Shown here: one piece after another, positions 1 through 52,305 of the stretch
How positions within the stretch are numbered: the stretch's first letter is position 1
How the letters are laid out: each line of letters begins with the position of its first letter
Source: Acytostelium subglobosum LB1
Lineage: Eukaryota; Evosea; Eumycetozoa; Acytosteliales; Acytosteliaceae
Length of the DNA: 64,000 bases
Direction of reading: 5' to 3'
NCBI RefSeq assembly: GCF_000787575.1
Contig: NW_012236513.1
Location: forward strand, 310,001 to 374,000
Notes under the pieces: model-generated
Database searches by the model: none
What the model saw: only the letters and a program-made list of their open reading frames with translations
What the model was told of the DNA's origin: nothing
Position numbers and translations under genes: made by a program

Positions 1-3000
1 TGGTTGGTATTCTCCAGAAATTGCTTGCCAACCTTGACGGTGATGGGCTTGTCGCGTCCTGTTCCCTTGGGTGTGTGACAGATCAGCGATAGATGATCGG
101 TCCAAGTGATCTGTGTGCAATCCTTTCCATCAATCTGTACGTTGTTCTCGTCCTTCTTTGAAGTGATCGAAGTATCCTTGCCCAATGACTCTGGTATGAA
201 GTTGTTGCCTTGGATTGTAATATCGCCGCCAACAGTTGGTGACGTATACTTCTGATTGTCCAGCTTAGGTGCTAATGTTTATGGCGAGTTAGTGATTGAC
301 CGAGTGGAATGATACCATTGAGTGAGTGATTGGACATACGATTGTAGGACATGGTGATGTTCTTCTCAGGGGTCTGGCCACCAATGGTGATGTTCAATGG
401 GACATCCTTGCCAATGCCTGGTGGAGCTGTACACTTGATATCTTGCTCGGACATCCATTGAGGGGATGAGCATTCCTTGTCATTGACGGTCACCTTGCTG
501 TCAGCAGGGTCGACACCCTCCGGTACAAGGTTGTCACCTTTGATCTCAACCTGTTGGCCATTGGTATCACTGTTGGTGCAGCTCTCAAGTGAAGGACGCT
601 TGTAGGACATGGTAGATGAACACTTCTCGTTTGGCTTGTCGGTAACACATGCCTGTCCACCAACAAACACTTCAACAGTATGATTGGCACCAATACCTGG
701 CTTCACTGTACATGATATCTGTGATGAGTTGGTCCACTTGATCTCCGAGCAAAGTTCATTCTTCACCGTAACATTGCTATAATCAACTGTACCTGGTTCG
801 ATATCCTTTGGAATAAAGTTCTTTCCATCAATACTGATCTCGCCTCCACTTGTTGGGAGCATGGATACATTGTTGACTTGAGGAGCTAATGTGATTGATT
901 GATTGATTGAGTTAGTATGTGTTATCAATCAATCAACCGTGCATATGAACTTACCATGATAGCTGAAGTAGTAGAGTGATGAATCGTTGTTGGTCATTGG
1001 TTGAAGTCCTATTGTGACGTTGATGAGGTGTTTGGCACCAATACCAGCGGGTATGGTCATGTTGATGAGTGTCGAGTTGGTGAACTGAGTGTTGTTCAAC
1101 AGTCGATCACCAAGCATTACGAATGTGTAGTTGAGTGGGCCAGAGATGTCGACGTCTAACTTGCTATCAGCTGGATTATCAATATCATAGTACATGATAG
1201 TATACTCATTGGGCACAAAGTTGTTGCCTGTTACAATGGCTGAGTATCCACCATCAGTGTTGGTGTTGCCAGCGCTTTCCATTGATGTACCATTGATGGT
1301 AGGTGGGAGGTATGAGATGGTCTCGGTGGCGACATTGGACCTGACTTTCTCAAGCTCGACAGTGACAAACAATTGATTGGGTCCACCAATGCCCGGAGGG
1401 AGCTCGCAGCGCAGACAGTCAAAGTCGATGGTCGAGCGGAAGGATGGTTTGAATGCGATGTAAGGGTCGAACGGTGTGTCTGGAATTTGTACAGTTGGCG
1501 CGTCGATCGTGTTGCCATTATCATCAATGTACTGCTTGTCCATGTAACAGCTGTCCGAGTCATCAATACATTCCACAGGCATTTGATCATAGATGAATAC
1601 AAAGGGCATCTCATCAATGACTGGGCCGAGGTCAGTGCCAGCCACCCAGAATGAGCCGCCAATGGCAGTGGGCATTGGCTCTTGGACGACTTGCAGGATG
1701 AATGGATCCTTGTACTTGTAGAGCTGGGTGCTGGGATCGGATGTTTGGCCGTTCGCCGAGAGTGTGACTTTGTTGGCGCCATTTCCATTGGGTACAACAC
1801 ATTCGACCTCTGTGTCGAGTGTGATCATCTTGGTCGACAAGCAGGGATCAATGTCAATCCACGCCTCGATGTTTGATAGTCCATTGATTGCATCGCCAAA
1901 GTATTTGCCTATGATCGTGAGTATGTCTCCGCCACTTAGTGATTGTGCGGGGCCGACAAACGATGTGACGATTGGTGCTATGTAGTCGACTGTGAATTTC
2001 TGGCTGTTGACACTGAGTTGGTTGGCAACCGTCACTGTTAGTTCTTGTTTTACTCCGGCTCCACCTGATGTAGTGTACACGATCACACCTCCACTGCCTC
2101 CGAGTATATTTGTTGGCACCATGCTCAATCCCTCTTTGACAACAATGGTGTCGACTGCCTTGGATGTGAGCGAGAAGAAGTTGGTTCCAAAGATTGAGAT
2201 GATACTGCCAAATGGCTTGAGGGGTTTGTCCGACATCTCAACGCGCTCGATCACTGGTGCATCGTAGGTGAACTGAGGAAGCGGGTTGCTAGGGACCGGG
2301 AGAGTGCTGCCTGGATTGGAGACGGTGATGGACTGCACGCCAACGTTGGATGGGACTTGGCAAACCAGTGTCTCTCTGCCCTCGGGTATGGGCTGGGCGG
2401 GCGTGTACTGGATCAATGTGCAGTCCATGCCACCAACCTGAACGCGGGCATTGGCTAGCTTCCATCCAGTGATGGTCATTGTGTTTGATTGTGTTGGTAT
2501 TGTTGGAGAGGTGAATCCAACAACATTGTCAACGACTGGGTCTGAGTTACATAAAGATAGTGCCGAGGCCAGGAGGTAGGTGGAGTATGTCTGCGTGTCA
2601 AATCCACATAGCTGGCCATTGTAAGTGGCGACGACGATGCCCGTTGATGATGAGGTGTCGACTGCATCTCCAACAAAGTACAATATCATCTCTTCATAGA
2701 TGATAAAGTCATTGGCAATGTTGACCAAGTATTGAAGCATCGAGGTGACAACCACAAGTGTGTTGGGGTCGGTGACTGTCGAAGTGGTCTCGCGGCCCAG
2801 TCCGGTGAGGCAGAAGAGTGGGTCAAAGATCTCGATGAGTGCTTGGAGGTGGAGATCTGACTTGAACATCGACTGGAAGGCATTGCGCATGCTCGGGGTG
2901 TAGAAGAAGCCAAAAGCATGATTGTTGTAGAGGAGTGACAGGTCGGGGTCGGTTGCCCAGCTCAACACAGCCTTCTCAAGTAGTGAGTGACCAACTCGAT

Positions 3001-5525
3001 CAAGTTGAGTCAGGCACACGCCAAAGGACAAAAGGTAATCGTTGATCGTCGGGTCGGTTGATGGGAGAGCGACTGGAGCGCAGGGTGTGGTTGGGGGCAA
3101 AAGGGCCTGATCACATGACTTGAGATTATTGAACTGGACAACTTGGTCAACATGTCCCATTGTCACCTCGTAGAGGTATGTGGTCGGGTCGATTGTCTGA
3201 GCGACAGCGCCACCAAGCTCGCTGGCAAGGTCCTTAAAGGATGCTGAAGGGTTGGCGAGTGAGGCCTTGATTGCGGCGTCCAGTATGGCAGCGAGGGGGA
3301 TCGTGAATCCACGATTATCATCAAATGCGTAGAGGTTACTGAATTGTGCATTGCCAATCACATTGTCATTGTCACCATCCATCAGATCCCAGATCGCTGC
3401 GGTGATCCATCCAGGCGAGGCCATTGCATTCAAACGTGTGGTGAGGTCAGAGTTGAAGTGCTCAATGTTTGTTGGCGAGGCGTAGCAAGAGTCGAACTGA
3501 ACTGCCTGGCCAGATGGGGAGATGGCCTGGCGGAATAGTGCTCCGACTGCGGCGACCAGGCCGGTGATGAAGGCGCGCGAAGGGTCAGTGTCGAGTACTT
3601 GGGCAAATGGCACTGTCATGGGCTGGTAATTGATGGCCGAGTTGCCACGCGCAAGAAGAGAGTATGCAAACACTTCGGCAACTTGCTCAACGCACAGCTT
3701 CTGCAAGTTGATGTGGACGTCGGTATTGGCGCCAATGGTGGCGCGAGTGCGGTCTTGTGACAGCGTGATGGTGATGTCATTGAACAGGTAGTCGGGCAGA
3801 GCATACTCCTCACGAGCAAGCTTCACAAACATTTGGAATAGTTTGTAGACCATCAGGATGGGGTCCACCTCGGCCACGAAGGCAACATTGTCTCGTGGCG
3901 TCAGTGGCATCGATAAGAGATTGCCCTGTGAATCCTCAACACGCAGCTTGTTGACTGTATCCTCGAGGAAGCATGTGATGGACAGTTGGTAACCAGTTGT
4001 GATTGATTTCTCTAAAGATACCAAACCGATGGAGTCCGAGACGTATGAGTACTGTTCGCCAATGTTGTCGAGACATGATTGATCACATGATGGCAGTTGT
4101 TGTTGTTGCTGGCCACTCTTTGGAATTGGTAACACCTGGACCTTAGTGTTGTGGAGGAGACCATCGGTCTGACCCAAGTATGGCTGGCCGAACGTGGTGA
4201 CATCGATGTCGTACATCAGTCGGCCGTGGAAGTAGGTGTCCTTGACTGTGGACACAGTCTGGCTTGGACATGCGGCATACGACGAGCATGGAGTTGAGAT
4301 GATGGTGACTGACGAGAGGTAAAGGAGGGTGGCCAAATCATTGATAGCCGAGTGATCTTGAAGACAGACAATAATACATCCACCTTCGATTGGAGAACAA
4401 GTTGAGTCTTGAATACATATTGATCGATCAGCTGTGATGGCCACATGACTCTGGTCGATCTCAGAGCTCCATTGGCGTGACACTGGAGGGATCTTGAACT
4501 TATCCGCAAAGCCACTGGGCAGTCGAGTCTCAACGACGCCAGATGCGCCAGTAGGGAGAGCATATCCAGTCCTCTATTTGTTTGATTGAGTGACATAGTA
4601 AGTGAATGATCGAGTGATTGATTGATTGTGCGCGTGTGGTACATACTGGGATAGTGAGAAGGGACACGGGAGAGATGAGACCTTGGGTCCAGAAGTCGTT
4701 GAGGTAGGCAGAGAAGAGGGATACTTGGCTTGGGTCGTGGTAGGCAAGAGTCTGGCTGGATGATGGTGGACTGGATTGGAAGTATGAAAGTAAGTTGATG
4801 GCGTTGGCAGTCTGACTCTGGACGCTGGCATAGACATTGGGCGAGGCACCAGCAAGTACAGGTAGTACACTGGCAACATTGGAGAATGAATGGCAGACGA
4901 ATGTGTGGGCGTATGAGAGGCGCAGGTCGTCCTGGACCGAGTCAGGCGATGCAACGTGGAAGTCTGTTGGGAACCATTTAGCATCAGGTGCCTTGGTTGG
5001 CGTCATTATGCCCTTGGATGTGGCGCTCAACAAGGGGAATCCTTCCTTGGAGTGCTTAATGTGGAAGCCTGCATTGGATGAGCCGCTGGCCACAACGATA
5101 CCTCGAGGTCCATGACGTCTGCGACTGTGTGATGTTTCAGAATGATCGCGAGCGTTCAACGAGGGATAGAGCTGCCCAGACTGGTCGCCCTTGTAGGGCA
5201 GATCGCTGTAGGCGAGGTGAGATAGGTCGGCTGCTGACGATGTTGTTGAGTCAAGTTGCGACAATGTCGCGGCCAGACAGCTCGATTGTGAGGTGATGTC
5301 AGTTGATGATGGTACTGTGATTGATTTGCCATTGCTATCAACATAGATGTATGAGTTGGTAAAAGGAAGTAGCTTGACGAACCACCAATCTACAGGCTGT
5401 CCAGCATTGGACATGCAAGATGGTGGTGTCGTGGCGGCAAGCGCTCCCATTGTATTAGCCAATGCCACTACCAGCAATATGAGTGCTGGCAACAGCCGCA
5501 GCACAAAGAGTGTGCGTATTGACAT
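1..5525 (-). CDS. Giant secreted protein, DNase II-like pseudoenzyme domain plus IPT/TIG repeats (3' end beyond window)
   Basis: Exons by GT-AG and phase: 5525-4647, 4573-955, 885-340, 271-1 and beyond; about 1,771 codons are visible. Start ATG 5525 opens a hydrophobic signal peptide (residues 1-30). Residues about 36-320 match the DNase II fold: GQPVDWWFVKL start, FHIKHSKEGFP core, THTFVC-like strand. The HKD active site is degraded. The first motif reads HGPRG, lacking the lysine of HxK; the second reads DQSHVAI, with Q and H where DNase II has H and K. Nuclease activity is therefore unlikely (inference). Residues about 430-968 are a partly helical region I do not recognise. From about 969 there are at least eight IPT/TIG Ig-like repeats with the usual VPPGIG-type turns. 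No membrane segment is visible, but the C-terminus is missing. It is transcribed away from the related gene at 6497 and the two are probably paralogues. Confidence 0.85.
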
Positions 5526-6397
5526 CTTTCTTTCTTTCGTTCGTTATCTTAGATTGATTGATTGATTGATTGATTGTTAGATTGAATGAATGATGATAGT
5601 ACATTTTAGATTGAGTGAATAACGAGTTTGATAACCTCGACTGTTGGACGGCGGAGTGGCTGGCCACTACCAATCGGGTAGCATATATGAATGCTAAACC
5701 CTTGTCGCTTGCCCATTCCAATGGGTGTATCTTTGCGCTCTCGTCTCTTGATCTTTGCATCCATTCGGTTGGGTCTACCGAGTTCCCCTGGTACACTTAT
5801 CCATAATTGGTATCATCATTGATGTGATTGATGTCATTGATGTGATGTGGATGGAGATATAAGAATCAAAAGATATAATTATAACCTTGATGATAAAGAT
5901 CCGTGTTGTGATGAGTGAATGAAATGAGGGAAACAGGTGAAGCTCGCATTATTCAAGACACTTGTCTAATTTTTAATGTGACGTTTAGCTGAAACGAATC
6001 AAAATTACTATTTTTGGTTAAAGTATCTTCATTCACTTCGGCCGCCGCGTTCACACAACCTCACTCAAAGATATCCACTCACTTCGTCTTTGTCTCAAAC
6101 AGACATAATGTTTAACATACACGACGAGGTATTGGACAATGAATGGGCAAGGCGAGGGATTGGACACAACACACAGGCTTGTGGATTGTTTGACGTTGAT
6201 TGGATTACAATTATGGACTCGACACTACAGTAACTCATGCATGACATCTATCCCAGCCATGCATCCCAGGTCAACTAAGACCGAGTCTTGAGCTGTTAGA
6301 TATGTCAAGCGAGCGAGCGAGTCGAGATGAATCGAATCGTATCGAAGTCGAAGGAAGGACGAAGCATACTCAATCAACTCAACTCAAGCCAACCCCT

Positions 6398-6436
<39 letters not shown>

Positions 6437-6496
6437 CTACTACAGTCACACAATCAATCATACAATACGTAAGACCTACACGATTAGACAATAGTA
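5526..6496. promoter_or_regulatory. Shared intergenic region of the two DNase II/TIG genes
   Basis: 971 bp between two divergent start codons, so it should hold both promoters. It carries a (GATT)n tract at 5551-5576 and a (CAAT)n tract at 6399-6436, each close to the start of its gene and each CAAT in that gene's sense direction. I see no coding sequence and no clear TATA box. The rest is ordinary AT-rich spacer. Confidence 0.5.
6399..6436. repeat. (CAAT)n microsatellite
   Basis: About nine uninterrupted CAAT units in the 5' leader of the giant gene starting at 6497. The same tetranucleotide marks most introns in the window. Confidence 0.9.
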
Positions 6497-9400
6497 ATGA
6501 GGAGGAGGACACACCAAGTGCCACTCTTACTACTACTCCTAGTATGCTGGCTATCGCCTGGAGCGATGGCAGCGCCAACAATGACAAGGTTGTCACCGGA
6601 TTGGGCGCCACCAATGGGTGGAACAACATTCAAGGTGATAGGCACAGGCTTTGAACCACACAACATCATCCTTGCCCAGATAGACACGGTGGCAACAACA
6701 TGTACTTACAATAGTGCCACTGAGCTGACATGCAAAGCACCTGAGAGCGTACGAGGTGCAGCGACCAATCTCCCCTTCCAACTCGAGATTGACAACCAAG
6801 TCGTTTCTCAATCCAACATTAAGTTCCGATACGTCTGTAAGTCAATCAATCAATCAATCGCCCAATGGAATCATTCAACTCACTCACTCACTCACCCAAT
6901 CAATCTATTAATGATACAGCCCCGATCGTCCATGAGTTTGATGAACAGTATGTCACTCCAGGCCAGAGGTTCACAGTGATTGGCGAATACTTCTTTGGGC
7001 TTCCACCAATTAATGGACTGATCATTGGAACGTTTGGGACCACGCCATTAATCGAGTTCAGATGTGTGTTTGAATCGGTCAATACGATTGTCTGTACCAT
7101 GCCTGCTACCTTTGGCTTCAAGCTCAACAAGTTCTATTTGGCCGATCTGGTACCCAACATGCTCGTCTTCTATGTGGAGACTGCTCGCATTCAACCAACT
7201 GCCAAGATTGCCCTGTTCAGTATGTACCATCCACGGATGTGATGTCATCGATCACACAAGCACCAATCCACTAATCAATCAATCAATCAATTTGAATAGA
7301 ACCATTTATTACTCAGATTCGCAAGAGTAATGCTGTTGGTCAAACGAGGGAGGTTAGATTCATTGGTCCAATGCTCCCAAAGAATGAGATAGCTGATCTC
7401 AGTCGGTTCCAGGTCTTTATGCAATCTGGAAACACAATTCCATGTACCCATATTATGATTGAGGATGATCAAAAAGCAAATAATATGCTTACCTGTACCT
7501 TTGAGTTCCCTCCCAACACCATCTTCCCCGTCATCCTAAAGCCCATAGTATTGCTCAACGGCCAGCCATTGCCGATTGGTCAACAAAATACGTATGTACT
7601 CCATCCATTGATTGATTGAATGAATGACTAACATTCCATTTCATTCCATTCCATTCCGCTCCACCTCCACTCAAGTGATGGATTCATACCTTTACCAAAC
7701 AATGAACAATTGACTTTGAGATATGAAGCATTGGACATCAAGATTGAACCATCGTCACAGTGGCAGGGACAGGATATAGCAATCTCTGTTGCAGACATTA
7801 ATTCGATTGGCCATTTCAAGGTTGGTGCCAGTCCTTGGTTTAGTCTCAAACCAAATATGATAAAAAATGGAAAGATCTACATCACAATGCCTACCACTAC
7901 CTTCCCCTACATCGACTTCCAACTCAGATACAAGGCACCTCCTCAAGCTGAGACCAACATTGTCCGTGTACCCGTCCGTATGTAATCAATCATCAATCAA
8001 TCACTCATGGATTGCAATCACTAACTTCAATCAATCAATCAATCATATAGTCAACACTCAGTTGACATTGTCACATACCCAGGGCTTGGCAAGTGGTGGA
8101 TACACTGTCACTGCGACCTTTGGCAGCATGCCCGGTCCACAGGATTTAGCCATCAAGTATTATATTGATGACAAAGACACAGACTCTGTTAATCTATTTA
8201 TGACTCGCAACTCAGCTACATCAAACGTGTACACAATACCTGCTGCCAATGACTTTGATTTCAAAGGTCGCGCATCAGCCCAGTACAAAGTCTTCATACG
8301 CTACAACAGCCAGTTGTTTGAATCCAGTGCCACATTCGCCTACACTTGGCCTTGGATTGGACAAGCATTGCCAGCCAATCCCCTGACCTTGGCCAACTTT
8401 GAGCTTGTTGGCACAGGGTTCACATCGACATCACTCGTTGTGATCACGTACAATTGGAGAGGTGCGATTCAGACCATCAGGCCTCCATTCATCCTCAACA
8501 GCGACACATCCATCATGGTGACCACGCCCGAGTTCAACACTGATGAGCTAGACAGTGTCCGAATCGAGGTTGTTTTGGACAATGGCATCAAGTCCAACCA
8601 GTGGTTGGTGCCCTACGTCTCGCCACAAGTGATGGCCATCTCACCAGAGTATGGACGAGCCCAATCATCCATGCCTGTCACCATCTATGGCTTTGGCTTT
8701 GGCACCACAACAGCAGGTCTCACAGTCGAGTTGACTACGGCCACAACAATCCCACCAACCATCATCCCTTGCGCTGTACTCAATGTCGCGGCTAATACAA
8801 ACAACAACATTCGTGGCAATCAGATGATCACTTGCATCAAGCCAGCGACAAATGTCCAGGCTCAATTCAATGTGTTGGTCACACGCAACACATTCCCAAG
8901 TCGCGAGACGGTGACGTTCAAGACTCACGGCCTCACATGCCTGGGCTACAAGGGCAAGCCCGTCGACTGGTTCCTCGTCAAGAAGCTTGGCTCCAGGTCT
9001 GGCGATCCCAAAAAGAAAGATGATATGTACAATGGTCACTTCTATGTGGACAGCACAATGGCGTTGGGCGACCAGATCATTCTCCCAGAGCGATACGACG
9101 CCCGCGATGGTGGCATCGCCCAGACCTTCATGCAACACCACAACTACCCCTACATCTTCTTCAGCGATCAACAGAGGAAGAGGGATACCCCCTCAGCAAC
9201 AGGCACGCATAAAATCGATACACCTGATAACGGACATGTCAAGGGCGGTCTGATGTGGGATGTCTCCGGTGGAGTAGTTACCGACTCCATCCACATGATG
9301 CACTCACAGTCTTCCTTCCCCATGCTCATTTCAGACGATGGCACAGCCATCCCGCCGCGGTCCACATACGCCACGCCCGACAACACCCCGAACACTCTTG

Positions 9401-12400
9401 AATGGTTTGGTGAATCCATGGTCGTTGGCAACTACTTCTTCTGCTACCGTCCCAACGATATTAATGACGCCGCGCAGTACTTCCTCAACACCGACGCCAT
9501 CTCCGCGAGATATCCTGGCTCCCACCCGTTCCAAACCACCTGGTTACCTTCTGCGCCCCCCTCTGCCCTGAGTCACTTGCTCACATCAGTGACAAGCCAT
9601 ACCGTCACACGCTATGGAGTCACAAAGATGAACGAGATCAGCGCGGGGTGCCTGGCCAACTCGTGGCGGACCGACCTGAACAACTACTGCTACTTCTCAC
9701 GAACGGTCTTCAACAACAACCTTGGCACAACAACGACATATTTCTCCAAGACAAGAATCAACTACGTTATCAACACAGCTATTACCACGCCTGCCACACT
9801 CTTGCCACAGTCTCTCTACTCTCGTTTCGTCATCATGACCAACAAGAATACGGTCTCCACTGGCACGCATGCACCAAAAAGCGATGACACCCGATTTGGC
9901 GGTATCGACATCTGGGAGGTGATGGCCAACAGCTTGGGCCGAACAATGTTTGTGCAGACCTGGATCAAGCTGCAGGGCTCAAGACGTATGCTTGGCGCCA
10001 ATGGCATCATCAACGTCGAGATCATTGGGATTCCAGATCGCGCAAGGATATCTGGCGACACGAATATCAAGCTGAGCACTGGACAACAGGATCACACAAA
10101 GATGGCATGGAGCGCATTCCCCGCGGACAATGGGCCAAAGGTTGGTCAAGACAACATGTTCTGTTTTGGCGACTCCAACAGACACAACAAACAAGGTAGA
10201 CGTGGTGCTGGCGCCTTCTGTTTCCAGAACGAAATGCTCGTCAAGATGTTCCACAGCTTCGTCCTCACCTACACCTCCTTTGTAAGTTACTTCCACTCAA
10301 TCAATCAATCAAACAATCAAGTATACTGACTCACTCAATCAACCATGCAGGTGGATTATAATGAGATACCTGATCAGTTACCAATGGTCTCCACCAATAT
10401 GAACAATGCTATTCAATTTATGGATGGCGGTGCACCTGTCCAGATGAGGTTGCCCGGTGGAGCATTGACGCCTATCTATATCACAAACAGGAATCCGACC
10501 AAGACCAATACCGTGGACCACTACAGACCCGGTGAAGTGATCAACTACGTGTCGGGCGGCCCACACACCAGGACTGTGCCCACACCAGTTCTATGCCCAA
10601 ACAATGTGGCACCGCCACTACTCAACAACGACCCTGAATGCTCCCTTCTCATCACTCATGGTGGCCACGCCATTGGCGTTGACAACCTGCCCATCAAGAT
10701 CAGAGCCCCATACATTGCCATGCTGCCGCCCAACAAGATCCCCATGTCAACCAACATCAACAGCATCCCTGGCAGCGAGGTCGTCTTTTCCCATTTGGAG
10801 AGTGCCAACCCCTTCATCCAGGGAAAGTTCGGTATCCAACTTGGCCTGGAACTGGCCAACTATGTCGTCTACTATTGCGATGACCCAGCACCAATCACCG
10901 CGATCCAGTGCCAGCGAGCCGGATTCAATCTGTTGACGACGGACAAAACCATCGCACTTCGCTTCTTCCGCACAATGCCAGCAACAAACGAGATCGTGTT
11001 GCCCGAGTTGACGGTCTACCCGCTCGACTATCAGATGCCACCCCCGCCTGTGACCTACCCGGCAGCCGTGGGCACATTCAAGTCTCTTCAGCCGTTCTAC
11101 AAGCTGGGCCATGGCTTTGCCTACATCGCCTACGAGGGCACTGAGGACAAGGCAGCGATCTGCGCCAACCCGCCATGCACGTTGGACAACTCATATGTGT
11201 CCGAGACAAGATTGATCTACCTCTGCTACAAGGTGGCATCAATGTCCAGCGCGCCAGGCATCAAGGTATTCGATGGCTTGACAATCGACAAATGTCCGGG
11301 CAACAACAACAATGACAAGTCGTTGCCGACTGAGGCCGCGATCATCAAGTTCATCGGCAGGATCAGGAGATATGTCATCGCCGATAACAGGATGAAGAAG
11401 CTCTTCCCTGCGTCAGTGCTGCCGCCAGTGATCAGTGTTCGAGAAGACCCCATGGCCAACAACAGATATAGCTCGCCCAACATTGTCCTCCAGAAACTCA
11501 ACGTGTTGTGTCAAGATGAGTTGGCCTACCTCATGGCGCTGCACTTGGTAGACCTCCACACCGCGTACAAGATGGTACATCCGTTCGTACATTTGGACTC
11601 GACCACACCCGATTGGACTAATGGTGTTGCACTGGCCATCTCCAAGATACTCCTGGAGTTCGTTAATCCCCCAGTGCACCCATCACACAAAGGAAAAGTT
11701 GACACATGCTTCCAACCAACCATCACCATTCAATCATACAATGACAATGACGTTGCGTAAGTATTCCATCCAAGTCCATGTCCCTCAGACTCTAACTCAA
11801 ACTCATCAATCATTCAATCAATCAATCATACAGTACTCTTCCAACATATGTTCGTGTTGCTATGGCGGTATACAAGTTGGCACAGTCCGGACTAGTCAAG
11901 TCTCCAATGGACTTCTTAAATCATTTCTTCCCAATTCTTCATAGTCGCAACTCACTCCAGATCAAGACACCCCACGATCTCTTTGGAGATATACCATTGA
12001 CACTAGAACTCAACAAAATAATCTACACTCTCAACAACAACAACAACAATCTCCTCATGTCCAAGTCCAATCTCCGTAGTCTGGCATCATCGGCACTCAA
12101 GTCCATCGGCACATCACTACCAATAGAGCCAATAACCGACACATTCAATCAAGATGGCCAACCAACAATCGATGAACTGGCCGATGAAGACACACTCTCA
12201 GACCATTACATGTCAATTACCGCGTTGAATGATCAAGAGTATGCCGAATTGGCCATCAGTTTGGACAAGTGGGTAACGATCAAACAGAAGAATATGGCCA
12301 TGGAAGTGTTGTTGTCCACCGAGGAGTTGACCGCCACATACCAATATGCACTCACATACCTCGATCATGTCGCTTCCATCGAGCTCAGCTCAGCCTATCC

Positions 12401-15400
12401 ATTGTGTGAGCAGATTGCTGATGACGGAACCAGCACGTACCAGGTGTGCTACCCTCAGACCATCAGCTCACTCACGTCAATCATTGAGTTCATCATTCGC
12501 TCGCCATCAACTGTGACTCAGACACATGGTGATATGGTCTACTACTTCTCGCCAAAGGCCGACCAGACACTGCCAGCACTGTTGCCAACTCAATATGATG
12601 GCTTGGTGATCGCCACACTCAACTCAAAGATCTGTGATGTGTTGCCAATCAGTAATGTCAACTTCCAAGGACTGGCCACAGCAACATCAGAATCATTGTG
12701 TGAACAAGCTGGCCCTATCATCAGCTCAGTTTCAAAACAAACAGGATCAAGTGTTGGTGGCCAGAAGATCACAATTTATGGCACATCATTCAATGCGGAT
12801 CATGTTGTAGCAATTGGAGAGACATTGTGCAGTCAAACAACATACTTGGTCTTGTCCTCTGGTGATCGCGCACTTGAATGTACCGTTCCACCTGGTGTGG
12901 GCTCACACCATCAGGTGTATATCGTCACTGCAGATGGATCATACGTCCAAGACAGTGTGTTCCTCTTCTCATACGACTCGCCGTCAATCTCCTCGGTGTC
13001 CTATGCTTCTGGACTCACACACATCGTTGGCAAGAACTTTGGAAATCCAACCATCATCTCTGCCGACACTGACTACGCCATCGACGTGTCATTGGACGGT
13101 GTTGACTGTCCCATCACTCAGTTTGATGACTCCAACATTGCTTGCAACTCTCAATATATGTATGGCGATCGTTTGGTCCAGGTCACAGTTGGCAACTCAG
13201 TGTTCAGCACCACGACCAAGCTTCAGGCCACCCTTCTCAATCAAACACAAGTGACATTCACCAACAACGCACCAGTGATCACATCACTCCGTCCAAGTCA
13301 AAGCCAGGCTGGAGACGTGATACAAGTGATTGGAAGTGGTTTGATTGGATCTGATCTATCACAAGCATACTCATTGATAGAGTCTAGCAAGGTAGCCACA
13401 CTTGGTGACTCATTCTCAACCGAGGCCACTGTCCAAGTGCCCCTCTACTCACAGTACGCCAGCAGTCCACTGTTGATGCAGGTTGAGAACACCGTGAGCA
13501 ACATAATCACATTCAATCTTCGTGCTCCATCAATCACATCATTCACACCCAATCAGTTGCCAACCACTGGTGGTGTGTTATTGATCACTGGATCAGGATT
13601 TGGAATGGTTCCAGAGGCATTGGACTTTGTTCATCTTGGTCCATACTCATTGATCTGCACGCCATTCTTGAAATTCATTGAATGTACCGTGCCACCTGGT
13701 GTAGGAGCATCCCTCACACTGACTGTCTCTGTGTCTGGACAGACTGCCACGACCACCTCAACATTCTCATTCAACGCGCCAACCATCACCAATGTCCAAG
13801 TCAACGTTGCCGACTCCATTCTGATGATTGATGGCAGCAACTTTATCCAACCTCCAACGACAGTATCATCTCAGGACACGTTTGTGACGCTCACATCATC
13901 AGTGTTGGGAGAGACACTCACATGCACATCACCCAACTTTGTCAGCCAGTCACAGATCACTTGCACTGTCAACAACTTTATCGACCTGTCCACTGTCCAA
14001 GTGAGCATTGGTGGACAATTGTCCAATGTGTGGACGCTCACCACATCACTCCAAGGCACCATAATCATTGTGGACAACACAAATACTCAGGTTGGAACAG
14101 TCAGTGACGTCAACTTGGTGTTGACTAAGTCCGGCTCCAGCACGCCACTCACTACGACATCCTCGTCATCTGGCTCATACTCATTCCCCAACATTCTCCC
14201 AGGCACATACACCATGACCATAACAAGCAACAATCCGTCAATCATGCTACCATTGACTACTATAAACGTTGTAGTACAGGTGCCTTCAACAACCAAGAAT
14301 ATCTACGGATTGAACAAGGTATCTGACTGCAATGGTGTGTTGAACTCTGGCTCAAACACTCTCAATGTTCAACTTGGAACACTCTATCTCGATGACTTTG
14401 GATGGTGCTCATCCACAGGTAGTTGCGCGATGAAGGTCAGCAGTGAGACATTGCCACAAGGATGCGTGGCAACATACCTTCCCAACAATGTCGTGACGAT
14501 CACAGCACGATTAGTGGCCAATGTCAAGGTGTACCTCGACTCACAGATCACTGGTGTTGCCTCTGCCACACCATACACCAACGTTCAAGTTGTTGCCAAC
14601 CAGGTGACATACGCTGTAGACGCGACCACTGGCATTGCCGCAGTCACACTACCATTGGGCAACTCAATGATCCACATCAAGACATTGGACAACAACTTCA
14701 TATCGTTGATCAATGATGTTACAGTATCGATGAGTTTGGCCACACCAGTGATCGATCTGAGCTTTGGAGTCTATGAGTACAAGTGGTACGCAACACATCC
14801 ACCAGTCGTATTCACTCGTCCACAGAGCACCAGTACACTATCACTACCAATTGGCTCATGGTTGGAGAGCTTCCTCAACAACCTCGGATGGTCTGCCAAG
14901 ACAATCATCAGTGACGTCCCGCCTCCAATGTATGACATTGAGGTCTACAGAGGATCACAACCATTCATCAACATAGTTGACTTGTGTAAGTTTGAGTATT
15001 TTGTTTGTGATTGATTGATAAATCATTGGACATGGAACTAATCCACCCCCACCAATCATCACACTCAACAGACATGTTTAGCAATCTTCCAAGCAAGATG
15101 GTATGTCGTGGACAGACCATTAGCGTGCCCAATCGCTACCCTGTTAATCCACCCACTATCCACCTGTCAGGTATGTGTCTGATCAGTCACTGGAACTATT
15201 CCAATCACTCAATCAATCAATCAAATACTAACCACTCGACTCACTCACAGTCCCAGACAAATCAGTGATAGTAGGCTGCTCAGTGGATGCTGGTGGGCTG
15301 ACTCTTAGTTGCAGATTCCCTGGTCCATTGGACACCACATCACAGGAACATGAGATAATGTTGATATGGAGAGGTCGTATACCAGTCTTGTCCAGAAACT

Positions 15401-18400
15401 ACTATTACTCATATACCAGGTCATCTATCCAAGGTCAAGTGTACGTCGACGCCAATACGAATGGAGTGTATGACTCGGGTGAGACACTGCTCCAAGGTGT
15501 GCCTGTGACTCTTAACCCACTGAACTTGAAGACCACCACCTCCAACACCGGTGTCTATGAGTTCAACTATGATGCTGGCACAACACCAGTCACATCCTTC
15601 AGCATCAGTGTTGACATGAGCGCATTCACTCAATACTATGATCCACTGTCCTCTCATGGATTGTCAAGTACTGCATGTGGCACAACTCTCAACATTCCAG
15701 TGTTGAACACTGGTCCCTCAGCATGCCAGGTCACACTCAAGTCTGGCACCAACACGCTCTCGATCCGCACGCCACTGATCGACCTCACGCCATATGGCTG
15801 GTGCGCCACAGGTGGTACATGCTCCAACCCAATCACATCGATTGACAACCCATCAACATGTGCGCCATCACTCGCCACCAACAACATGTTCTCGCTCATA
15901 CCCGGCACACCCTACTCATTCAAGTTCATAACTGATCAGTTCTTGACTGGAAACGCCGCCAACACGCTGCCAGCATTGGATGTCACGTCCAACATCAAGA
16001 TCACAATATCCACCACCACGCCCTCGCCCGCCAACGTCAAGTACTCATTCATCTACTCGCCCATCGGCAACACACTCAATTTCAACCTGCCAGTTGGATC
16101 CACCGTGGTCTCGATCGTCTCGCTTGTCCCATCACTCGTCCCCCTGCTCAATGATGCCCGCATCTCAGTTGATACTGCCGCACAGCCAGTTGTAGAGCTA
16201 CCACTCCGCTTCTACACATGGGACTACGATGCCAACCACGGCCCTGCCAAGCTATATGAAAACAAGCTATACGAAGGCCAATACCTCGCCTTGCCATTGG
16301 GCCCTATCGACAGCAGGGCGATCACCAATCTACTTGGCACAATTGATGGAGCGATCAGACTACCGCCTGGTGTGAGGATCAGCATGTCTTCATCCTGCAA
16401 CTCTGGTGGATACTATGGATTCCCCGTCATGTATGACATTGGAGGCGACGTCAACCTTTTCCGTGAAAAGTTCTGCGCCAAACCCTTTGACGTATTCTAC
16501 TACTATACGATGGACCTCACTGATGCCAGTAAGTTCTCTCTCCCACCCATTGGGACTATTCCACACAATCACATACTAACTTAATCAATCAATCAATCAA
16601 TCAATCTATCAAAGATATGTTTGACAATGTACAACCATCATGTCTTGGATCCACTTTTATCCTCCCCAACCGTTACATCAACTATGTCCCTGAGCTAAAA
16701 CTTGATGGTAAGTCTACTACCTCTCACTCCCGCGACAATAGAATGAACTAACAAATGAAATGATCCCAATCATACAGGTTACTCTGGACCCACTGTACCA
16801 TGTATTCCTGACGCTACTGGCAAGACCTTAACATGCACATTTGCACCAAACATTGGCAGCCACAGTGCGAACATTCATTTGAATGGCGATTCACTCTACA
16901 AATTCTACCACTTCTCTTATCCTGGTAAGTGAGGACATCCGCAGTAGTCATCCCTTCCTGGAATAGTTCCACTCACTCACTCACCACCTCCACCCATCCC
17001 ATCCATCAATAGACGTCACAATGAAGGGATCAGCCTTCCTTGATCTGAACCAGAACAACAAACAGGATGCAGGCGAGCCATTTTACACTGAGAAGATTGG
17101 AGTTAATATCTTGACTACTAGCGTGAACAGGACTTGGGTGTTCCCCGCAGGATTCGTCCAACTCAGTCTCGGAACAGTGTATACACTCAGCATTCTCAAC
17201 TCATCATTCCCAGTGACACTGTCTGGCTATGCTGGAACATACATCGCATCACAACCAGTCCGTCAAGTATACATCACTCGTGCGATGGGATGTTCGGCCA
17301 CGATCCCAGTGGCACTGGTAAAGGTGTCAAGCAATGGATGTTTGAGCAAGTTGAGTTCAGGCACATCCAATGTACTCCAAGTTCAATATGGCGCCACCAA
17401 CTTGTCACAATATGGATGGTGTCCATCACAACAAAAGTGTGACTATCCCATCACCGACTCAATCGTTCCAACACATTGCACTCAATCATTCACATCATCC
17501 AGTGTGATCAACATTGGATACAACTGTCGCTTCAGGAACTTTGACTATTCATCACTCTCTGGGTATGTATCAGTGATCACTCAGTTCAATGAGTCAGTCA
17601 GTGCACTCAATCAATCATACTAATATCCAATGAATCAATCAACCAATCAATGCTCAGTGTCACATACTCTATCAATGAATATTCGAATGTGATATATTAC
17701 TATTCATTGTGCGGTCCAACACCAACCCAGTGTGCAGGATTGTCCACTACCAAGGACATCAGTTTGTGCCAGCTCCACCTAGCTGATTACTATCCAGTTG
17801 GTCAACAAAGTGCCAACACTTGGGATATCAATCGTATGTTATCTCAATCAATCTATCAATTAACTTAAAGCACTGTGAATGAGTACTGACAACCCAATAG
17901 CATCTCCAGGATCAGGATACAAGTTGACAACCAGTGCCAAGAGTAATATCAATATTACAAGACAGGGTTTGGTTAGTGTAGCATGTGGACCAACTACTAA
18001 AGTGACAAAGGCAGCTGAGCCAGTTGGACTTTCATATGTCATCAACATGGAGTCACCATTGGCTTGCGCACCAAGTGTATCATGCGAGTACAATGGACTT
18101 AGATTCTACGATCTGTCAAAGTATGTGTATCACATTGTTTGATTGACCCTGGCCATCAACTGCCACACTCATATACTAATTCAATCAATCATAAAGTACC
18201 ACCCTCACTATCAATGACGTCAAGGAAAAGACAGTATGTATTCGAACCAGAGTTAACTCAGTGCTCCATCCAACTCAAATAACTCACACGCTCCCTCACT
18301 CAATCAATCAAGTATAACTACACTTTCTCAATCTGTTATAACCCTTCTTTTAGATGTGGAACAATATTGGGAAGCCAAGTGGCCTCATGTCAGCTGGTCA

Positions 18401-19747
18401 GTCAATCATCCAGCGGAACCGTTTATGTTGGCAATGGAGATTGGTCCAATGCTGTTTGGAGCAGTCCAGGTATGCTCCCCTTCCCCCCAACATTATCTGG
18501 AATCATTCCACTCACTCACTCCATCATTCAATCAATCAATAACACAGAGAAAGACAACTATGTTGGTGCCAAGCTTACGTATGACTCTCCAAACGATATG
18601 TGTGGAACACTCAAGAGGAATACTAAGATTCATTTGATGTGTGGTCCAGACACAACATATAGTGTAGTGCTTGGATATGAGAATCCAGCTGCACGTTGCA
18701 ACTATGACATGTACGTGTCCACCAAGTTGGCATGTCCAGTTGTTGTACCAAACTGTCAATTCAATGGAATGGACTTCTCATCGATTGCCAAGACTGAGTT
18801 CACCACAACCATACCTGTCAAGTCATATCATCAAGTTTGTGGCACGCCTCCAACATGCATCAAGAACCTCCTTGGACCATTCTCATCATGTACCAACTCT
18901 GGCACACAATGGACTGCCACTGGAACACTATCCACAGGACAATGGTCATTGAGTAGTAAGTTATCAAACATTAAAATGAGTGTTGGAAATGGCCCTGATC
19001 ATGCTAACATCCACTCACTCAAATCAAACAGATGTTGTGAATGGCGTCATGGTCAACTACAAGACTACTGCTGCTTCATGTCCAAACCAAGTGAGAGACA
19101 CATCGATCCATTTGGTGTGCGACACAACAACAAGCACCAAATCAATCTCTCAACCCTCAACGTGCCACATTGATATCGTAATGGGATCACCCTTGGCATG
19201 TCCCAAGCCAGCTCCAAACTGTCAATTCAGCACCTATGACTTCTCAATGCTCGCCTCGTATGTTGATCAACTCATTGTAATGAATGGAATCCAATAACTA
19301 ACTCAATCACATTCATTTAGTACAACCTTCACTCAATCAGGAAAGGACTTGGCAGGAACAACAGTTCCATTCAACTTTAGAGTGTGTGGACAAGCATATG
19401 GATGTGTGAACACAACTGGTGCATCAGTTTGTGTTGGAAAAGGTACAGCTTGGATTGATGGAGGACAAGAGATATCAGGCACCTGGTCAAAGAATGGTGA
19501 GTATATTTATGACAGAAGTTTGAAGTTGGGTTAATGAATGAATCACTAACTTGGCCTTGGCAATATAGCTGGAACCAACACCATCGATCTCAAATACACT
19601 GGTGAGTACAATACTGATTGTCCAAACTACTATCCAACAACTACCATCCATTTCAAATGTGGAACTGGTGCAACAGTGGCAACCAATGCCATCGAGACAT
19701 CCAAGTGCCAGTATGACATTCAAATGTCAACTCCAATAGTATGCTAG
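6497..19747 (+). CDS. Giant secreted TIG / DNase II / SdrD-like / MRH protein, about 3,922 aa
   Basis: Twenty exons, phase-consistent: 6497-6836, 6920-7219, 7300-7591, 7676-7977, 8051-10281, 10351-11756, 11834-14985, 15072-15170, 15251-16528, 16615-16707, 16778-16924, 17013-17562, 17658-17833, 17901-18120, 18197-18233, 18313-18469, 18548-18955, 19032-19257, 19321-19496, 19569-19747. Residues 1-25 are a signal peptide. About six TIG repeats reach residue 700. Residues about 705-1155 are DNase II: KPVDWFLVKKLG, first HxK (HVK, about residue 806), second HxK (DHTKMA, about 1092), then GDSNR and RGAGAFCFQ. Residues 1156-1900 are unrecognised. More TIG repeats follow, then three SdrD-B-like modules each with a YGWC unit, then four MRH repeats (about 3,390 to the end). 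MRH repeats 1 and 2 keep the Q, R, E, Y sugar-binding set; 3 and 4 do not. There is no C-terminal anchor, so it is probably secreted or lysosomal. Confidence 0.85.
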
Positions 19748-48222: not shown

Positions 48223-49350
48223 CTATTGCACCAACAGATTGGATAGCGCGCGCAACACGGTCAGCTCCTGCTCGTACTCCTCTTGGAACTTGTCAAGACT
48301 TTTCAGTCTCGCGCTAACCTCATCCAGCAGCCTGAGCTTCTTGCACTCGACCAGATTGTCTTGGTTGCCCTTGACCAGCTCGAGCAGTGTGTCCTCGCAC
48401 TTCTCACACAGAATGGCCTGGTGAGAGTCTGTGACTTTGGCGTTGTTGAAGCTGTGCACGAGGCCGACCAAAGCCTCCAGTACGCCGCACTCGTTTGCCT
48501 TGGCCTTCAGTGCCGGATGCAGATGTAGTATCTTTCTCAATATATGTGTTGCCTTGATCATTCCAGTGACACTGTTTGGAACAACATGCTTTGTTGATGT
48601 CTCCTTGACTGTTTCAGCGTTGTTGTTGGCAGTGCTGCTATCCAATGGGATGTAAATGTCGACCTCTGGTGTGAGGAATGATACACATAGCATCATCAAT
48701 GATTCCATTCTCTCGGGATGGTCCTTGTCAATGAGTCCAGCGGCGCCCAGCGCACTCAGCAATGAGAGGAACTTCTCGCGACATAATGCGTTGGTCTCTC
48801 TGCTCAGCAGTCCCAATATAATGTCGCCAACGCCAAGCTGGTTCAAATACTTTTGAATCGACTCCTCATTCTGTGTGATGATTGAGAGACACAACGTTGC
48901 TCTGGCACGCGTGTCCCTGTCCTCGCCCTTGATCAAGTCCAACAAAATAGGCACGCCACCAATCTTGATGTAGTCGCCTGCATTGTCAATATCCTCGATA
49001 AAGAACTCCAATGCGTCCAGTGATGAGCAGCGCTGACCAGGTGTGGACTCGGGGTTCTTGAGTATGTCGTTGATCTTGGTCATCTTCTTGGCGTCGTCCT
49101 CCAAGTTGTCGAATGCAGCGCGCAACCATTCATAATCCTTTGGGTCACGGTCTGTCAACACTGTCTCTTTCAAATTCGGTGAGTCTGTATGTGTCAAACA
49201 GAACTTGAGCAATCCAGGTCCAATATCCCTCGGTACATCATAAGATGATCTTGGAACAATCTTATTCTGTGTCGTTGTCGTTGTCGTTGTCGCTGGAGAA
49301 GATGCGTCAGTTGTTGACTTCTTTTGAGTTGCTGGTGGTCCTAACATCAT
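48223..49350 (-). CDS. HspBP1/Fes1-like Hsp70 nucleotide-exchange factor
   Basis: A single exon of 375 residues. The pattern LLKFCLTHTDSP near the start, LEDDAKKMTKINDILKNP, then ALEFFIEDIDNAGDYIKIGG and GVPILLDLI is the HspBP1/Fes1 armadillo-repeat domain, which strips ADP from cytosolic Hsp70. The family length is 290-400 residues, so it is complete. A T/S-rich stretch fills the first 35 residues. The start may be the first or second methionine. Its divergent neighbour encodes Hsp110, another exchange factor for the same chaperone, so common regulation is plausible. Confidence 0.9.
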   Translation of the reverse strand: MMLGPPATQKKSTTDASSPATTTTTTTQNKIVPRSSYDVPRDIGPGLLKFCLTHTDSPNLKETVLTDRDPKDYEWLRAAFDNLEDDAKKMTKINDILKNPESTPGQRCSSLDALEFFIEDIDNAGDYIKIGGVPILLDLIKGEDRDTRARATLCLSIITQNEESIQKYLNQLGVGDIILGLLSRETNALCREKFLSLLSALGAAGLIDKDHPERMESLMMLCVSFLTPEVDIYIPLDSSTANNNAETVKETSTKHVVPNSVTGMIKATHILRKILHLHPALKAKANECGVLEALVGLVHSFNNAKVTDSHQAILCEKCEDTLLELVKGNQDNLVECKKLRLLDEVSARLKSLDKFQEEYEQELTVLRALSNLLVQ

Positions 49351-49856
49351 TGTTTATATTATATTATTATTATTATTATCTATACTTAATATGATATTAT
49401 ACTATTAACTAATTACAACTATATATACATGTAATAATCTTTGAATGTAAGTGTTAAGATGTTTGAACTTGAAGAGAGAATTAAGAGAGAGGACGAGTGT
49501 TGTTCGTTGGAAGTTCAAAGGGAAACACTGTGGATATCAATGAAATTTCGCGTGCAGTTGCACGAGGAATTTCTTGCAGATTAGATTGAGAGAACATGTG
49601 GGGTAAAGAGTGTGTGCGAGTCAGGCAGACCTCGAAAATAAAATGAATGACTCGTGTTGACGAACAACACCAACTTCAAAGCCCAAGGGAGAGTATCAGT
49701 ATGCATCGCATTTAACAACATCACTCATTCACTCATAATATATATCTATCTATCAAACAAAGATAAATACATATATTCATAATACACACACATACACATA
49801 TATATTTTAATTAGATATATTATAACTTTAATCACCAACCACAGGAATATAATAAG
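49351..49856. promoter_or_regulatory. Bidirectional promoter of two Hsp70 exchange-factor genes, with palindrome
   Basis: 506 bp between divergent starts. At 49543-49574 lies an imperfect palindrome: two 15-base arms matching at 13 positions around a GT centre, with the perfect core CGTGCA/TGCACG. Its left end includes TGAAATTTCG (49542-49551), which fits one two-unit heat-shock element (nGAAnnTTCn). The flanks are AT-rich. A role in heat-shock control is inference. Confidence 0.5.
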
Positions 49857-52305
49857 ATGTTTGTCGTCGGATTCGATTTCGGTGTTAAGAACTGCACAAT
49901 TGCCGTTGCACAAAAGGGAGGCATCGATGTTATTGCCAACGAGGTTTCCAATCGTCTTACACCATCACTCGTCTCATTCGGTGAGAAGGAGAGATATCTT
50001 GGTGAGCCAGCTCAAACAAACGTAAGTCCAATCACCTCGCACATTCAATCACATCATGTGATCGATCATTCAAACTAACATCCATCCAATCATTCCATAT
50101 CATTCCAATCAATCATAGTATTTGAGAAACATTAGAAACACAATTACAAACATAAAGAGATATATTGGAGTCAACTTCAAGGATGTGCAGCAGGAGCTGA
50201 AGCAGGAGTGCTTCTCATACCAGGAGCTTCCAAATGGACAAATTGGATTCAATGTGTCGCTGTGCGGAGAGCAGCGCGAGCTGACTGCCACCGCCGTCGT
50301 CGGTATGCTGCTTGGCAAGCTCAAGCGCACCACAGAGGCCTACGCCAAGGCCCCCCTTAGAGAGGTGGTCATCTCAGTGCCAGGCTACTGGACCGAGTAC
50401 CAGCGCCGCGCCCTCCTCAACGCCGGCCAGATCGCCGGTCTGAACATCACTCGTCTCATGAACGAGACCACCGCCACCGCGCTCTCCTACGGCATCTACA
50501 AGGAGTTGCCAGAGGACAACCCCCTCAAGGTGCTGTTCATCGATGTTGGAGACGCCTCGACCTCGGTCGCCGCCGTCGCCTACAAGAAGGGTCAGCTGAA
50601 CGTCATGGCCACAGCATTTGAGAAGGATGTTGGTGGACGCAACTTTGACCAGACTCTGCTCAAGCACTTTGCTGCCGAGTTCAAACAGAACTACAAGATC
50701 GACATTTACGAGAACAAGAAGGCCATGATCCGTACTCTACAGGCCTGCGAGAGGATGAAGAAGATGCTTTCGGCGAACTTTGAGGTGCCCATCTCGATCG
50801 ACTCGCTCATGGAGGATAAGGACGTCAAGGGCAAGCTGACCCGTGATCAATTCGAGGCTCTGGTCGCCTCCGACCTTGAGGCCATCTTGGCACCAGTCAG
50901 AAAGGTGCTCGAGATCACCGGCATGTCTGCCGACCAGTTCGCCACCGTCGAGATCACTGGAGGTGGCACGCGTTCCACCTCTGTCCAGAAGAAGCTGTCT
51001 GAGTTCCTTGGCCGCGAGCTCTCCAAGACCATCAACTCTGAGGAGTCTGTTTGCAGAGGCTGCTCGCTCCAGTGCGCCATGCTGTCGCCAGTGTTCAAGG
51101 TGCGTCCATTCGCCATTCACGAGATTGCCTCCTTCCCAATCCAGGTCTCATTCAAGTCTGCCTCAAGCGACCAGAACCTCGCCGTTTTCAACGCCACCTC
51201 CCCATTGCCCTCTGCCAAGCCAATCCGTTTCTCATTCCCCGTCACCAAGGCTGAGCCATTCCAGCTGGTCGTCAGCACCACCTACGGCACCCTCCAGACC
51301 ATCACCGTCAACAACGTGCCAGCCTTCACCAACAAGTCCACCGTCAAGGCAAGAGTCTGGTTGGACGTCCACGGAATCTTCCATCTCGATGAGGTCAAGC
51401 TCGTTGAGACTTTGCCAGAGGAGGCCGAGACACCAAAGGAGGACGTCAAGATGACCGACGCCGCCCCAGCTGAGGGAGAGGAGAAGAAGGACGAGGCCAA
51501 GAAGGAGGAGCCAAAGAAGGTCAAGGTCAGAGAGACTGCCCTGGAGTACCAGGTCAACATCCCAATGAACAACCTCGCTGACTTGCAGAAGGAGATCGAG
51601 GAGGAGGGACGCATGCACGCCACCGACGTCCTCGCCACCGAGACCGCCGACAAGAAGAACGCAGTCGAGAGCTATATTTACGATATGAGAGCCAAGCTCA
51701 ACGGAGAACTGAAGGAGTACGCCACCGCTGAGGAGTCGTCCCTGCTGACATCCATGCTGACAAACGCCGAGGACTGGCTGTACGCAGACGGCGAGGACGC
51801 CACCAAGTCAGTGTACGTCGCCAAGTTTGAGGAGTTGGACAACGTTGGAGGACCCATCATCAAGCGTCGCGGTGAACGTGAGGCCTACCCAGAGGTGGTC
51901 AGGCGTCTGCGTGACGCCGCCAGCTTCTACAAGAACGAAGCCTTCACCCCAGTCGAGAAGTACGAGCACATCGCCAAGGAGGACAAGGAGAGGATCATCA
52001 ACGAGGCCGACCAGTTGGTGGCCTGGGTCGACCAGCTGGTCACCAAGCAAGGGTCCTTGCCAAAGACTGCCGCATGCATTGTCAACGTCACCGATGTCAA
52101 CACCAAGATCAAGCAGTTTGAGTACATGGCCAAGACCATCCTGAACAAGCCAAAGCCCGCCCCACCCAAGGTTGAGACACCAAAGGCTGAGCCAGCCCAA
52201 CCACAGACTCCACCACCCCAGACTGAGACTCCACCACCCGCCACCGAGGAGTCTGCCGAACCAGCACCAGCCGCTGCCAAGGATGCCAACATGGATCTCG
52301 ACTAA
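49857..52305 (+). CDS. Hsp110 / Sse1-type Hsp70-related chaperone
   Basis: Exons 49857-50021 and 50119-52305 give 783 residues. The ATPase domain opens [18 protein letters not shown], differing from classical Hsp70 GIDLGTT, and contains [21 protein letters not shown] and [20 protein letters not shown]. The C-terminal half has an acidic K/E-rich loop (about residues 500-530) in the beta-domain, then a helical bundle with [20 protein letters not shown]. The tail is P/T/E/A-rich and lacks the EEVD end of cytosolic Hsp70. These are Hsp110 features: a cytosolic exchange factor and holdase for Hsp70. Coding sequence is strongly GC-ending at third positions, suggesting high expression. Confidence 0.95.

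Follow-up and report, generated by a model that had tools for sequence, protein, structure and literature searches.

A DNase II domain among TIG, SdrD_B and MRH-like repeats in a predicted giant protein of Acytostelium subglobosum, and a divergent neighbour without the HxK pairs

We have analysed a stretch of 64,000 nucleotides (the window) from the social amoeba Acytostelium subglobosum LB1 (RefSeq assembly GCF_000787575.1, contig NW_012236513.1, positions 310,001 to 374,000 of the forward strand) that contains two adjacent, divergent genes with a DNase II domain. All positions given below are those of the window. Gene A (6497–19747, + strand) is predicted to code for a giant protein in which DNase II is combined with TIG, SdrD_B and MRH-like repeats. 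Gene B (1–5525, − strand) has the same core order of DNase II, a middle region and TIG repeats. The anatomy of the two genes, the similarity of their cores, and the active-site residues that are kept in gene A and lost in gene B can be read directly from the DNA. Going further, we propose that gene A encodes a DNA-cutting DNase II built into a giant secreted adhesive-repeat protein and that gene B is its pseudo-nuclease paralogue; judged on sequence, this proposal has about an even chance of being right.

The DNase II domain of gene A and the repeats around it

The DNase II domain of gene A (8935–10275, + strand; amino acids 707–1153) lies entirely within exon 5. A preliminary description of the locus had placed it at residues 705–1155, which is nearly what the Pfam search returns: DNase_II is matched over profile positions 1–324 of 326 (E 1.4e-27, 97 bits). 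The first half of the active site (9235–9321, + strand) consists of HVK from 9235 (amino acid 807; H807 and K809), D815, and the HSxxxFP motif, here HSQSSFP from 9301 (amino acid 829; H829). The second half (10090–10227, + strand) consists of DHTK from 10090, with its H at 10093 (H1093, K1095), GDSNR from 10168 (amino acid 1118; N1121) and RRGAGAFCFQ from 10198. The same description had reported HVK near 9235, DHTK near 10093, GDSNR and RGAGAFCFQ, and the motif mapping finds them where they were said to be. Each of the two HxK halves has a third residue (H807, K809 and H829 in one, H1093, K1095 and N1121 in the other), and together with D815 all seven active-site residues that were looked at are kept. 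In the alignment with solved DNase II (PDB 5i3e/5unb, E 0.029 overall; the source is presumably Burkholderia thailandensis) the second-half elements QDH.K, GD.NR and RG.G of gene A are paired with their counterparts. We take the motif residues of gene A to correspond to those of animal DNase II, with human numbering for the HxK pairs, and on our own reading the spacing between the HxK and H829 is five residues longer than in animal DNase II. DNase II is an acid, cation-independent endonuclease that leaves 3'-phosphate ends and has a pseudo-dimeric phospholipase D (PLD) fold. A passage of PMC9208542 describes the enzyme as a pair of PLD halves, both having H, K and either H or N. For human DNase II, an excerpt of PMC5736616 gives Gly116 and Asp121 as highly conserved and His130 as likely catalytic, while for the pig enzyme His115, His132 and His297 are called crucial in the title of a reference cited in PMC11430429.

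Taken alone, exon 5 also matches TIG at 18.6 bits (E 0.0018), a little short of the Pfam cut-off of 20.9. Since this weak match and the DNase II domain are both in one uninterrupted exon, the junction between them is independent of splice prediction.

Upstream of DNase II, a putative signal peptide occupies amino acids 1–25 (6497–6571, + strand; by eye and by hydropathy). The strongest 19-residue hydropathy window of the protein (2.08, starting at residue 8) is within it. It is followed by an N-terminal region (6572–8913, + strand) with two Pfam TIG stretches (E 2.6e-14 for amino acids 1–720), its remainder being unassigned. Downstream of DNase II is a middle region (10351–12677, + strand; approximately amino acids 1156–1905, right edge approximate), which by comparison with shuffled sequences is similar to the middle region of gene B over amino acids 1432–1891; exon 6 gives no Pfam family. 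Then comes a second TIG block with four Pfam stretches in exon 7 (12714–14019, + strand, right edge approximate; E 2.1e-20). One SdrD_B domain is above its cut-off (15433–15582, + strand; amino acids 2769–2818; E 1.6e-7, 31.9 bits against 29.7), and a weaker SdrD_B or CarboxypepD_reg-like stretch (14097–14234, + strand) is below the Pfam cut-offs, with 24.4 bits for SdrD_B against the same 29.7. The C-terminus is made of four tandem MRH-like repeats (17525–19747, + strand; amino acids 3385–3516, 3517–3662, 3663–3792 and 3793–3922), found as four stretches of Pfam PRKCSH_1 (E 8.4e-13) and, in PDB, as matches to GlcNAc-1-phosphotransferase gamma (E 3.8e-5) and glucosidase II beta (E 9.5e-4). The TIG, SdrD_B-like and MRH repeats named in the preliminary description were thus all recovered. 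The MRH repeats may bind glycans, with the expected residues kept in part.

Gene A is a hand-assembled model of 20 exons with 3922 codons. Its frame is open from the ATG at 6497 to the terminal stop ending at 19747, with no other stop, and the single phase-consistent 20-exon frame proposed earlier is therefore reproduced by the in-frame assembly. The exons (+ strand) are at 6497–6836, 6920–7219, 7300–7591, 7676–7977, 8051–10281, 10351–11756 and 11834–14985 (exons 1–7), 15072–15170, 15251–16528, 16615–16707, 16778–16924, 17013–17562, 17658–17833 and 17901–18120 (exons 8–14), and 18197–18233, 18313–18469, 18548–18955, 19032–19257, 19321–19496 and 19569–19747 (exons 15–20). The bulk of the protein is in the long unbroken exons 5, 6, 7 and 9 (about 744, 469, 1051 and 426 codons). 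All 19 introns are GT–AG and uniform in length (63–95 bases), with the donors GTATGT (9), GTAAGT (8), GTATGC (1) and GTGAGT (1); 12 are in phase 1, five in phase 2 and two in phase 0. The word CAATCAAT occurs 28 times in the 1482 intron bases (6837–19568; in 12 of the 19 introns) and never in the 11769 exon bases, and the frame-shifted word ATCAATCA has 27 copies in introns and one in exons. A separate gene finder also links each of the two genes into a single chain, but since the hand model of gene A served as its training set, this agreement is not independent. Compared with that model it places the start at 6566 and two acceptors at 10378 and 15386 and retains the intron 18470–18547; for gene B it starts at 5450 and stops at 272, where the hand model has an intron.

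Gene B and the core common to both genes

Gene B begins with an ATG at 5525 and consists of exons 5525–4647, 4573–955, 885–340 and one from 271 that runs off the window at position 1 (1–5525, − strand). It codes for at least 1771 amino acids and its strongly hydrophobic N-terminus is a putative signal peptide. Its DNase II domain (4334–5420, − strand; amino acids 36–373) matches Pfam DNase_II over profile positions 1–316 of 326 (E 1.5e-23, 84 bits). When aligned with gene A, the first half of the active site reads RRRHGPRG instead of DNGHVKGG and has no HxK; in the second half DQSH stands for DHTK and QDSTC for GDSNR. This domain is predicted to be inactive, though it still scores as DNase II. 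Because the HxK pairs are absent, gene B probably binds rather than cuts. The middle region of gene B (2549–4297, − strand, edges approximate) has no Pfam match and no PDB match at E 1, and the TIG repeats are found as seven Pfam stretches (E 9.7e-42). Note that a single uninterrupted frame, exon 2, holds TIG repeats as well as the middle region and the last part of DNase II. A PDB search with the exon 1 piece of the DNase domain gave two chance-like matches (E 0.055 and 0.22), the solved DNase II not among them, and a match to the Ig domain of TgrO1 is insignificant (E 1.2). The start codons of the two genes are separated by a spacer of 971 bases (5526–6496), possibly a shared promoter.

The regions of the two proteins were compared by Smith–Waterman scores with BLOSUM62 and BLOSUM45, against 500 shuffles each. 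The DNase domains score 95 with BLOSUM62, where the highest shuffle reaches 62, and 122 with BLOSUM45, where it reaches 83; the middle regions score 96 against 66 and 141 against 98, respectively. None of the 500 shuffles reaches any of these scores, while the controls with mismatched regions stay inside the shuffles (88, 379, 116 and 98 of 500 reach the score). The middle regions (10351–12677, + strand, in gene A and 2549–4297, − strand, in gene B) can be aligned over about 460–470 amino acids. When the whole proteins are compared by BLASTP, residues 1532–2295 of A align collinearly with 580–1413 of B (E 3e-10), TIG repeats included, and the N-terminal parts of the DNase domains match as well, from residue 707 of A and 36 of B onward (E 4e-6). 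Beyond this common core, gene A has the N-terminal TIG region, SdrD_B and MRH. As gene B has the same order of DNase II, middle region and TIG, this order probably predates the split of the two genes and is neither a one-off fusion nor an error of the gene model. The interpretation in the preliminary description survives in part: the sequence upholds its set of domains in one gene, but not gene A as an isolated fusion, the adjacent gene B having the same core order. Sugar-reading by the repeats and a role at a surface or in phagosomes, which it also suggested, are possibilities.

Proposed function and alternative readings

We propose the following mechanism. Gene A would give one very large, secreted protein in which DNase II, with a complete-looking active site, is held between TIG (Ig-like) blocks and followed by SdrD_B-like and MRH-like repeats. 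It would cut DNA by a phospholipase-D-type mechanism, the two HxK halves forming one site. The enzyme would act in an acidic or extracellular place, tethered by its repeats to a surface, matrix or ligand, and its likely substrate would be DNA of food bacteria or extracellular DNA. Gene B, with the same core and without the HxK pairs, would bind instead of cutting, and the two genes may be co-regulated. According to a part of PMC9208542, DNase2 works at acid pH and without a cofactor, so that phagosome, lysosome and acid extracellular space are each possible. A second possible substrate is suggested by D. discoideum, whose sentinel cells give off nets of DNA; when DNase I is added, these dissolve and more bacteria survive (excerpt of PMC4773522). 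A bolder version, which we consider rather improbable, is that in this amoeba lineage DNase II has become a giant secreted matrix family in which a head-to-head pair of cutting and non-cutting members captures and trims extracellular DNA, whether of food bacteria or of the amoeba's own nets.

Several results weigh against the proposal that gene A is a secreted, tethered nuclease and gene B its non-cutting paralogue. The PDB match of the gene A domain (5i3e/5unb) is weak and its significant part is the second half only. The first-half piece, in which the H, K, D and later H of gene A are paired, scores −4.0 bits, which is not significant and thus no evidence by itself. The AlphaFold model of the domain (two sequences) has a mean predicted local distance difference test (pLDDT) value of 29.9. 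Between A and B, the C-terminal DNase halves taken alone are weakly similar, their scores being equalled by 12 and 8 of 500 shuffles, and BLASTP of the middle regions alone gives 26.2 bits (E 0.005), where the best of 200 shuffles gives 27.3. With regard to secretion, a second hydrophobic window at amino acid 2989 (score 1.97) leaves a membrane span possible; this window belongs to a unit that has another copy earlier in gene A, by eye a less hydrophobic one, which argues for a beta domain. The sugar-binding residues of the MRH repeats are mixed: by eye, Arg is present in three of four repeats and an aligned Glu/Tyr pair in two of four. Arg, Glu and Tyr occur together only in repeat 1, where the neighbouring Cys is Leu, and Gln could not be placed. 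For this scoring we assumed that the binding residues are Gln, Arg, Glu and Tyr.

It might be asked whether gene A is two or more genes wrongly joined, for example a TIG–DNase II gene stopping at 10327–10329 and another starting just before exon 6. The DNase II profile indeed ends almost at the end of exon 5, and reading through into intron 5 meets a stop at 10329. However, there are only 15 bases between this stop and the following ATG in the same frame (10345), and that ATG is inside the intron and followed by no signal peptide that can be seen by eye. Intron 5 resembles most introns of gene A in donor type, length and CAATCA repeats, and in gene B the parts follow one another in the same way, with no break in exon 2. 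We regard such a misjoining as very unlikely, and TIG and DNase II would be fused even if the locus were split there.

Two other explanations accept the gene and change its role; we hold each of them to be unlikely, though less so than the bolder version above. In one of them DNase II is, in both proteins, a non-catalytic module that binds DNA or another ligand, and the repeats make each a Tiger- or colossin-like protein for adhesion or recognition. Gene B would fit this, as it lacks the HxK pairs yet has a DNase_II score near that of gene A (84 and 97 bits), and according to part of PMC3188802 the dictyostelid Tiger proteins include proteins of cell–cell interaction and self-recognition, while colossin A appears to be structural. 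The seven active-site residues kept in gene A speak against a non-catalytic module there. In the other, gene A is a lysosomal or phagosomal DNase II that digests the DNA of food bacteria and loses its giant extensions by trimming after sorting. Amoebae digest bacteria, and MRH proteins elsewhere are tied to lysosomal sorting. The acid, cofactor-free action of DNase2 (section of PMC9208542) agrees with such a place, but the repeats stand on both sides of DNase II in a frame of 3922 codons. If the proposal of a secreted, tethered nuclease is true, DNase II, known mainly as a stand-alone lysosomal clean-up enzyme, has taken an extracellular or matrix role, and the pair of active-looking and inactive-looking paralogues is relevant to what social amoebae do with the DNA of bacteria and with the nets of DNA that they make themselves.

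Other genes of the window and comparison with known systems

The gene finder returned 15 models in the window with a score above 15; besides genes A and B, six of the 13 others were scanned with Pfam. A Fes1-like exchange factor gene (− strand) adjoins, and is divergent from, an HSP70-family gene (+ strand) that is Hsp110-like by eye (48223–52305). Two adjacent predicted three-exon genes at 52986–54161 and 54860–56018 (+ strand; 333 and 336 amino acids) are alike by eye; the product of the former, the one of the two that was scanned, has no Pfam family at E 0.001. Further along the + strand are a GNAT acetyltransferase gene with an LYC1-like C-terminal domain (57566–58567) and a gene for a Cupin_8 protein (62182–63024; E 1.4e-59). 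A search for tRNA genes found none in the window. The base composition of the window (A+T 54.8%, GC 45.2%) fits the species: A+T is 55.0% in A. subglobosum, compared with 77.6% in D. discoideum, 68.0% in P. pallidum and 66.2% in D. fasciculatum (PMC4334915, in its Table 1).

The preliminary description had known of no protein with this set of domains, and a limited search agreed with it: DNase II and TIG domain were not found together in the open-licence literature, in which no title on Dictyostelium and DNase II concerned this architecture. It is quite possible that the gene A protein has an unremarked database entry. Dictyostelid DNase II genes are already known, as D. discoideum and D. fasciculatum sequences have been used in a tree (part of PMC4148230). 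A survey of DNases mentions few unicellular eukaryotes, and its main text has no word starting with 'amoeb' (PMC9208542). Searches for related loci gave one pattern match in viral contigs and 11 in prokaryote genome contigs, none confirmed, and none in plasmids at E 1 (tblastn); with viruses, prokaryotes and plasmids as the collections, these negatives say little. NCBIfam gave nothing significant for three queries.

Compared with DNase II (PF03265; animal alpha and beta forms and the bacterial 5i3e/5unb), gene A is alike in the HxK halves, HSxxxFP, GDxNR, RG(G/A)G and the near-whole profile. It differs in that the domain has about 450 amino acids against a profile of 326 positions and is inside a protein of 3922 amino acids, whereas the known forms are stand-alone, typically of 350–400 amino acids. 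The long DNase2b, also stand-alone, is given as 335 amino acids in a passage of PMC9208542. Both genes resemble the Tiger proteins in their TIG/IPT repeats and differ from them by carrying DNase II; Tiger proteins have a transmembrane segment; gene A may have one at amino acid 2989, which together with the putative signal peptide gives its two strongest hydropathy peaks. The family annotated as IPT/TIG, EGF-like, C-type lectin is expanded in A. subglobosum, with 43 members against nine in D. discoideum (PMC4334915, in its Table 2). With the colossins (Cna-B/SdrD-B) gene A has in common its giant size and an SdrD_B-type domain, but colossins have arrays of such repeats, and here one is above the cut-off, one is below it, and DNase II and TIG dominate. 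The Colossin D/Cna B-type family is likewise expanded in A. subglobosum, with 33 members against five in D. discoideum (from the same source, PMC4334915). The C-terminal repeats of gene A resemble those of the MRH proteins glucosidase II beta and GlcNAc-1-phosphotransferase gamma by PRKCSH_1 and PDB matches, and differ in being tandem, in a giant protein, and mixed in their binding residues. The component families are known, and TIG and colossin-type proteins already abound in this lineage; what stands out is the architecture and the pairing of an active-looking with an inactive-looking DNase II.

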